Program-made: the position numbers and the translations under genes
Shown here: one piece after another, positions 27,010 through 57,772 of the stretch
How positions within the stretch are numbered: position 1 is the stretch's first letter
Layout of the letters: every line of letters starts with the position of its first letter
Assembly: GCA_019057385.1 (NCBI GenBank)
Contig: JAHQJS010000006.1
Span: 248,001-312,000, forward strand
DNA from: Candidatus Borrarchaeum weybense
Lineage (GTDB): Archaea; Asgardarchaeota; Sifarchaeia; Borrarchaeales; Borrarchaeaceae
Reading direction: 5' to 3'
DNA: 64,000 nucleotides
The notes under the pieces: model-generated
Seen by the model: only the letters and a program-made list of their open reading frames with translations
Told to the model about the DNA's origin: nothing
Databases searched by the model: none

Positions 27010-27639
27010 TCACTTTTTATGATGTTTCCCAAAAAAATTGATAGAAATGTCTTGAATGATCTCCTGTGATTTTTGTATAGACTGAGTTGTATCAATAACT
27101 GAGTATTCTTCTTCTTTCGCCCTTTCAAGGAAATTATCACGTACTTTGCTAAGAAACTCTCTATTTTCAAATGATTCTAGTTTTTCTCTTCTATTTAGGC
27201 GCGCCATAGCATCCTTTGGACTTATATCAAGGATAAAAGTAATGTCGGGCCAAACTATGCCTTTGTTAATAGCCTTGATCCACTCTCTTGTTAATTCTTG
27301 CGCGGATTGATATGCTAATGAAGATTCAATATATCGAGTTGTAATTACGATTTGTCCTTGTTTAAGGGCGGGCTCTATAACTTCCTTCACATGTTGTATT
27401 CTATCTGCAGCAAATAATAGTGCAAACATCTCAGGCTGCTTAATTTCGAACTTGTCTTGCAATGCTTCTTTTATTAAGCGGCCAACGGCACCCTTAGTAG
27501 GTTCTCTAGTAAGAATTACACTAAATCCTTGTTCAACCAAAAACTCATATAGAAGTCTACTATGAGTAGACGTTCCAGAACCGTCGATTCCTTCAAATGC
27601 GATCAGAAAACCTCTCTGATTTGATTGTGGGTTCGTCAT
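27010..27639 (-). CDS. tmk: Thymidylate kinase
   Basis: FEGIDGSGTSTHSRLLYEFL, LTREPTKGAVGRLIKEAL, RYIESSLAYQS. Confidence 0.9.
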   Translation of the reverse strand: MTNPQSNQRGFLIAFEGIDGSGTSTHSRLLYEFLVEQGFSVILTREPTKGAVGRLIKEALQDKFEIKQPEMFALLFAADRIQHVKEVIEPALKQGQIVITTRYIESSLAYQSAQELTREWIKAINKGIVWPDITFILDISPKDAMARLNRREKLESFENREFLSKVRDNFLERAKEEEYSVIDTTQSIQKSQEIIQDISINFFGKHHKK

Positions 27640-27682
27640 GTGTTCACCTATAAAAGAAATTATAAGATTTCAGAGAATATGG

Positions 27683-27935
27683 TGCTCCGGCCGGGATTTT
27701 CAGGGTAGACAGACGTCAAGTCCCATTCGAACCCGGGTTTTGGGCGTGCTGTAATCAATGATATTTGATGAATACACGGTTCCCCCGATTGATCGGTTGA
27801 TCGAATGTCCAGGGGTTTCTCCCAATTCTGCACAGAGTACAAAGAAGAGTCGAGAGCCCCAGATGCTTTCGACTTAGAATTTGTTTATTTAGAACCGTTT
27901 ATGCCTTCTAAATGGCCGGACTACACCACCGGAGC
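27683..27935 (-). tRNA. tRNA-Glu(CTC) interrupted by four probable introns (about 27912-27868, 27850-27817, 27806-27737 and 27725-27697)
   Basis: Acceptor GCTCCGG/CCGGAGC; D-arm GTGTAGTCCGGCCA|AGCAT; anticodon loop CTCTCG|A; T-arm CCGGG-TTCGAA|T-CCCGG; encoded CCA (27682-27680). Exons sum to 75 nt. BHB motifs resolved by hand for introns 1, 2 and 4; T27/T43 mismatch and intron 3 junctions unresolved. Confidence 0.8.
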
Positions 27936-57681: not shown

Positions 57682-57772
57682 AGCCGGGGGGAGGAATTGA
57701 ACCTCCGTAAAGCGGATCTGCAGTCCACCGCCTCTAAGAGGGAGATATTTCCAGCCTCTAGGCTACCCCGGC
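57682..57772 (-). tRNA. tRNA-Cys(GCA) with a 19-nt D-loop intron (57753-57735)
   Basis: GCCGGGG...CCCCGGC acceptor, CTGCAGA anticodon loop, GGAGG-TTCAATT-CCTCC T-arm, U73; D-arm BHB GCCT-AGAG-GCT-GGA...TCC-CTCT-TAG-AGGC. Confidence 0.9.

Follow-up and report, generated by a model that had tools for sequence, protein, structure and literature searches.

A tRNA-Glu(CTC) gene of an Asgard archaeon interrupted at four sites, with probable nested introns in the variable region

The window, by which we mean the whole 64,000-nt stretch of DNA analyzed here, contains on its minus strand a tRNA-Glu(CTC) gene of 256 nt including the CCA (27935-27680), which begins with GCTCCGGTGGTGTAGTCCGGCC and ends with CCGGAGCACCA. 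We assign a probability of roughly 0.6 to the reading that this is a functional tRNA-Glu(CUC) gene, apparently the only one, that is interrupted at four sites by sequences with BHB motifs, and in which a pair of introns in the variable region would be spliced in the order inner-then-outer.

Exons, and the BHB motifs of introns 1, 2 and 4

Splicing of the five exons generates a 75-nt tRNA-Glu(CUC) plus an encoded CCA, GCTCCGGTGGTGTAGTCCGGCCAAGCATCTGGGGCTCTCGACCCCTGGACCCGGGTTCGAATCCCGGCCGGAGCACCA. With the CCA it is 78 nt long, and ARAGORN identifies it as tRNA-Glu(ctc). The exons provide a full cloverleaf with the anticodon CUC and the conserved bases of the D- and T-loops, as given by ARAGORN with the stems read from the sequence. 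In its unspliced form the gene was called neither by ARAGORN, applied to the window, nor by the Rfam tRNA model at the gathering cut-off.

Exon 1 (GCTCCGGTGGTGTAGTCCGGCCA; 27913-27935) comprises the 5' strands of the acceptor and D-stems and most of the D-loop, and is identical in a second genome of the same genus, G003. Intron 1 (27868-27912, 45 nt) interrupts the D-loop before A21 with the motif CGGC-CA^T-TTAGAA..TTCTAA-GTCG-AA^A, where a caret marks each junction. Exon 2 (27851-27867) carries the 3' strand of the D-stem, N26, the 5' strand of the anticodon stem, the anticodon CUC and G37. It is followed by intron 2 (27817-27850, 34 nt) in the canonical 37/38 position, with CTCT-CG^A..GGAG-AA^A. 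Exon 3 (27809-27816) consists of A38, CCCCU (39-43) and G44 (G45), with a 3' end that is uncertain by 1-2 nt; the 70-nt insert in the variable region follows (27739-27808). Exon 4 (27726-27738) includes the end of the variable loop, the 5' strand of the T-stem and TTCGAA of the T-loop. Intron 4 (27697-27725, 29 nt) lies at 59/60, with TTCG-AA^T-GGG..CCC-TGAA-AA^T, and exon 5 (27680-27696), read from the sequence, supplies U60, the 3' strands of the T-stem and acceptor, A73 and the CCA at 27682-27680.

A first-pass annotation had described introns 1, 2 and 4 as each having, at the junctions, two 3-nt bulges separated by a 4-bp central helix, and these BHB motifs are indeed found at the positions given. 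When the pre-tRNA was scanned without bias for BHB motifs, all three were among the top matches, both in the genome of the window and in G003. We also performed a shuffle test, in which the exons were fixed, the introns were shuffled with preservation of dinucleotides, and junction BHBs that were equally good were counted. None of 4000 shuffles gave an equally good BHB for intron 1. The corresponding fraction for intron 2 was 0.7% in the genome of the window and 0.08% in G003, and for intron 4 it was 3.9% and 5.7% respectively. The inner helix (h') of intron 2 is an unbroken 7 bp with one wobble pair in G003, and is degraded in the genome of the window. The BHB of intron 1 is not the lowest-energy fold of the isolated intron 1 segment.

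Two features of the mature RNA had been remarked upon as oddities. The mismatch at 27/43 is real, a U-U opposition present in both species and the only mismatch in the stems. Next to U27-U43 there is probably a pair C26-G44, and the predicted minimum-energy fold of the mature form contains it. The encoded CCA is by contrast ordinary here, as CCA ends many tRNA genes of the same genome. Directly downstream is a thymidylate kinase gene (27010-27639, minus strand). A scan of the genome collection with the thymidylate kinase gave bacterial matches only, with no syntenic archaeal locus, and the sequence just downstream of tRNA-Glu(CTC) is different in G003.

The variable-region insert

The first-pass annotation had noted that some 70 nt must be removed between the anticodon arm and the T-stem without a visible BHB. 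This is correct if the insert is treated as one intron; a single-intron BHB that leaves the variable loop GGAC has just two of four central pairs and no h'. In both genomes we listed every BHB removal, in one step or in two, that would leave a variable loop of 4-5 nt. The best-scoring family of two-step solutions was the same in the genome of the window and in G003, and has two introns of which the inner is removed first. The first step takes out 41 nt (inner intron, 27739-27779) from GGGG-AA^C(T)-CGTGT..GCACG-CCCA-AA^A-CCCGGG, with a central helix of three G-C pairs and a G-A mismatch, and an inner helix of 5-6 bp. The second step takes out ~29 nt (outer intron, 27780-27808, at about 45/46) from CCCT-GG^A..GGGG-AA^A-CCCGGG, leaving a GGAC variable loop. 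Its central helix has 4 bp with a wobble pair, and the motif would be complete only after removal of the inner intron, which is predicted to lie in the outer 3' splice site. Neighboring registers of the second step give a variable loop of GGAAC or GAAC, the latter scoring one point higher. We prefer the GGAC register because GAC-CCGGG stands in nearly all of the tRNA-Glu genes of the phylum that were fetched. Removal of the outer intron first leaves the inner intron with 0-1 of four central pairs. This destroys the inner BHB, and the order inner-then-outer would therefore be forced.

Dinucleotide shuffles of the insert reached a combined two-step score of at least 27 in 3.8% of cases, and of at least 26 in 8.8%, so that the nested reading has modest statistical support by itself. 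An unguided local minimum-free-energy fold of the inner region gave AAC and AAAA bulges on either side of a short G-C helix, with z = -1.66. Following removal of the inner intron, the lowest-energy fold of the outer region pairs through the predicted outer 5' bulge. Both species that have the Glu gene carry both of the variable-region inserts. On the basis of these sequence data the insert is most likely an outer intron of ~29 nt at about 45/46 whose 3' splice site holds an inner intron of 41 nt. The four introns of the first-pass annotation thus hold as four sites of interruption, but not as a count, which is probably five since the variable-region insert is better described as two.

An alternative is that there are just four introns, the 70-nt insert being a single intron cut at a relaxed site outside the 3-4-3 rule for BHB motifs, with a product ending in either CCCCUGGAC-CCGGG or CCCCA-AAAC-CCGGG. 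We regard this as unlikely, though it is the strongest of the rival explanations. It calls for one event instead of two, and ARAGORN draws a cloverleaf with a single intron of ~71 nt in the partly spliced form. On reading the sequence, a U27-A43 pair would be regained in the CCCCA-AAAC product, and relaxed motifs are tolerated by the alpha2beta2 and epsilon2 types of archaeal endonuclease (PMC4090602; PMC12397907). However, the GGAC product, if made by removal of one intron, lacks any central helix of 4 bp or of 3 bp, AAAAC lacks a one-step BHB, and the insert contains two separate hairpin units. Moreover the AAAC loop is without the GAC found in nearly all of the Asgard tRNA-Glu genes fetched. 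A mature form with A43 (CCCCA-AAAC) was also tried in the enumeration and rejected; it has no one-step BHB, and its two-step scores were 20 or lower.

The two variable-region introns might instead be removed with the 5' hairpin first, by excision of 26 nt from CCTG-GA^C-ATT..AAT-CGGG-GG^A followed by the second intron. A one-step BHB of this kind is present in both genomes; one of its four central pairs is a wobble, and its h' has 3 bp. What remains, however, has no well-paired BHB that would leave a loop of 4-5 nt, and the best score was 21 compared with 25-28 for solutions in which the inner intron leaves first. Such a pathway is therefore doubtful, and more so than removal as a single intron.

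Returning to the nested arrangement, we propose the following pathway. The introns would be cut by an (alpha-beta)2 tRNA-splicing endonuclease and the exons joined by a ligase, assumed to be RtcB. The D-loop, 37/38 and 59/60 introns would be processed as independent BHB motifs, as seen at the level of sequence. The inner intron would occupy the 3' cleavage site of the outer intron, whose own GGGG would serve as the inner intron's "5' exon" pairing partner. Excision of the inner intron would place GGGG-AA beside ACCCGGG and so complete the outer BHB, with CCCT now pairing with the same GGGG. Next, removal of the outer intron would generate CCCCU-GGAC-CCGGG or a variant with the register shifted by one base. 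We infer this order, inner and then outer, from the sequence.

Conservation and copy number

The comparison set comprised five genomes of the class. G003, which is called 100% complete, has an ortholog of the gene (L070) with all four interruptions at identical sites. Between the genome of the window and G003 none of 78 exon bases differs, compared with 10 of 178 in the introns (Fisher p = 0.035), and gene plus flanks have 92.5% identity over a 573-bp alignment. The five-exon minus-strand tRNA-Glu(CTC) proposed in the first-pass annotation is confirmed in its coordinates, and is supported by the sequence and by this ortholog with its identical exons and diverged introns. In addition, the exon sequence agrees with that of tRNA-Glu genes elsewhere in the phylum, nearly all of which end in GAC-CCGGG-TTCRAAT-CCCGG.

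The tRNA genes of the genome of the window were located using sequence patterns and the Rfam model, as a non-exhaustive set. Patterns for the 5' and 3' ends of tRNA-Glu found two genes in this genome and two in G003, in each case an intact TTC gene and the interrupted CTC gene. A pattern search, which would miss a strongly divergent copy, detected no further tRNA-Glu(CTC) in these two complete genomes of the genus. A second, intact tRNA-Glu(CTC) had been suggested as a sign that the locus was a pseudogene; the intact tRNA-Glu in the genome has the anticodon TTC. As no second tRNA-Glu(CTC) was detected there, the gene does not represent a pseudogene derived from an intact one. Glu(CTC) was not found in G001, G002 and G004, the assemblies of which are incomplete. 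An apparent match in G004 (L166) does not read as a tRNA.

It could still be argued that the locus is a pseudogene that is gathering inserts, with GAG read by tRNA-Glu(UUC). The intact tRNA-Glu(TTC) could read GAG by wobble pairing, and h' of intron 2 is weaker in the genome of the window than in G003. Yet all 78 exon bases are identical across species while introns and flanks have diverged, the stems are all intact except for U27-U43, and the BHBs of introns 1, 2 and 4 are preserved in both species. A pseudogene is therefore very improbable. Chance assembly or misassembly, for which only the draft nature of the genomes speaks, can be dismissed for practical purposes given the identical layout in a second genome and the match of the exons to tRNA-Glu genes across the phylum.

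Other tRNA genes, the endonuclease and known systems

A similar architecture can be fitted to other tRNA genes of the genus. The tRNA-Arg(CCG) gene of the genome of the window (G000:C5:26751-26918) has orthologs in G001, G002 and G003, with two hairpin units in the variable region. These fit an outer intron in which CCGA pairs with GCGG (TCGG in G001) and an inner intron one base later, leaving an AGATC variable loop. The nested architecture fits the sequences of the genome of the window, G003 and G002, but in G001 no more than two of the four pairs of the inner central helix remain. In the tRNA-Trp(CCA) gene (G000:C5:182203-182460; L167/L115) the nested architecture fits in the genome of the window. 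Here the inner intron is 47 nt in length, with a 4-bp central helix and a 7-bp h', and lies one base 3' to the splice site of the outer intron. The tRNA-Trp gene of G003 (L168) is without the 47-nt inner intron, and deletion of this intron from the gene of G000 gives a precursor of the G003 type. This difference, by gain or by loss, provides what we regard as the best support for the nesting idea at the level of sequence comparison, though in another tRNA gene. The G003 tRNA-Trp also appears to carry a T-loop insert that is absent from the G000 gene. The fuller proposal is of five protein-spliced introns in tRNA-Glu(CTC), two of them nested with a shared G-run and a fixed order of removal, in an arrangement that is shared by at least three tRNA genes of one genus (Glu-CTC, Arg-CCG and Trp-CCA) and that differs between sisters in Trp as if introns were gained or lost at existing splice sites. 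We place the chances of this at slightly better than even.

Four introns in one gene had been called extreme in the first-pass annotation, and this is so only in a relative sense. The gene is among the most interrupted of the genome, yet about 20 tRNA genes have an intron at 59/60 in the T-loop, of roughly 29-30 nt, and others have four or five inserts. For many, an automatic parse gives one to three BHB introns. The tRNA-Gly(CCC) gene (G000:C3:114184-114406, 223 nt; L139/L174) has, on inspection, apparently five separate inserts. It is conserved in three species, i.e. that of the window, G003 and G001 (L175, L176), and its assembled body is read by ARAGORN as tRNA-Gly(ccc). The automatic BHB parse gave no solution for tRNA-Gly(CCC), some of whose inserts had no BHB found, nor for two tRNA-Leu genes. 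Elsewhere in the window, at 57682-57772 on the minus strand, ARAGORN calls a tRNA-Leu where the BHB parse gives a tRNA-Cys(GCA) with a 19-nt intron in the D-loop; the Leu label is probably wrong. The window also contains a match to HEARO RNA (RF02033; 6588-6801, minus strand), with 83.2 bits against a cut-off of 83. HEARO RNAs are associated with ORFs for HNH endonucleases.

Two EndA paralogs are encoded in the genome, and both contain the N-terminal as well as the C-terminal Pfam domain. One retains the catalytic His and resembles the crenarchaeal catalytic subunit of solved structure 3p1z/3ajv, from Aeropyrum pernix. The second has a Glu aligned to the catalytic His of M. jannaschii. As judged from their sequences, the pair fits a candidate alpha2beta2 enzyme that would be able to act on noncanonical sites. 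The alpha2beta2 type of EndA goes together with noncanonical and multiple tRNA introns (PMC4090602).

A close comparison is with the Thermoproteales and other crenarchaea, where as here BHB introns occur at 37/38 and at noncanonical positions, some with ordered removal. The tRNAscan-SE 2.0 paper describes archaeal tRNA genes with up to three introns, and neighboring introns some of which are so close that the BHB of one requires prior removal of the other (PMC8450103). Those crenarchaeal genes have no more than three introns each (PMC8450103; PMC3293823), whereas here there are four sites, and probably five introns, in an Asgard host that does not belong to the Thermoproteales. Among Asgard archaea, a 2024 study of Atabeyarchaeia and Freyarchaeia reports introns in 92-95% of tRNA genes, more than half with multiple introns and often at noncanonical positions (PMC11291895). 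Its main text states neither how many introns a single gene can have at most nor any nesting, and does not analyze BHB motifs; its supplement may list a gene with four introns. The group II/III twintrons are alike in having one intron inside another, which has to be removed before the outer one. They are however ribozymes, whereas the BHB introns considered here would be spliced from tRNA by the EndA protein, so the Glu gene is not a member of the twintrons. The tRNA-Ile(UAU) of Cyanidioschyzon merolae has three introns, in the D-, anticodon and T-arms, matching three of the four sites of the Glu gene (PMC9602550), and its BHB introns undergo ordered removal (PMC3978253). That gene belongs to a eukaryotic alga, and lacks the double insert in the variable region.

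In the literature searched, mostly the main texts of open-access papers, we found no archaeal tRNA with four introns. The Glu gene exceeds the documented "up to three" introns (PMC8450103), although intron-rich tRNAs of Asgard archaea are already published (PMC11291895). Such genes elude common annotation tools, as this one did ARAGORN and the Rfam tRNA model, and surveys of Asgard genomes may therefore report as "missing" tRNAs whose genes are merely heavily interrupted. Asgard archaea are the closest relatives of eukaryotes. An order of splicing fixed by nesting, together with the absence of the inner tRNA-Trp intron from a sister species, would provide a concrete case for the spread of BHB introns by insertion into existing BHB sites.
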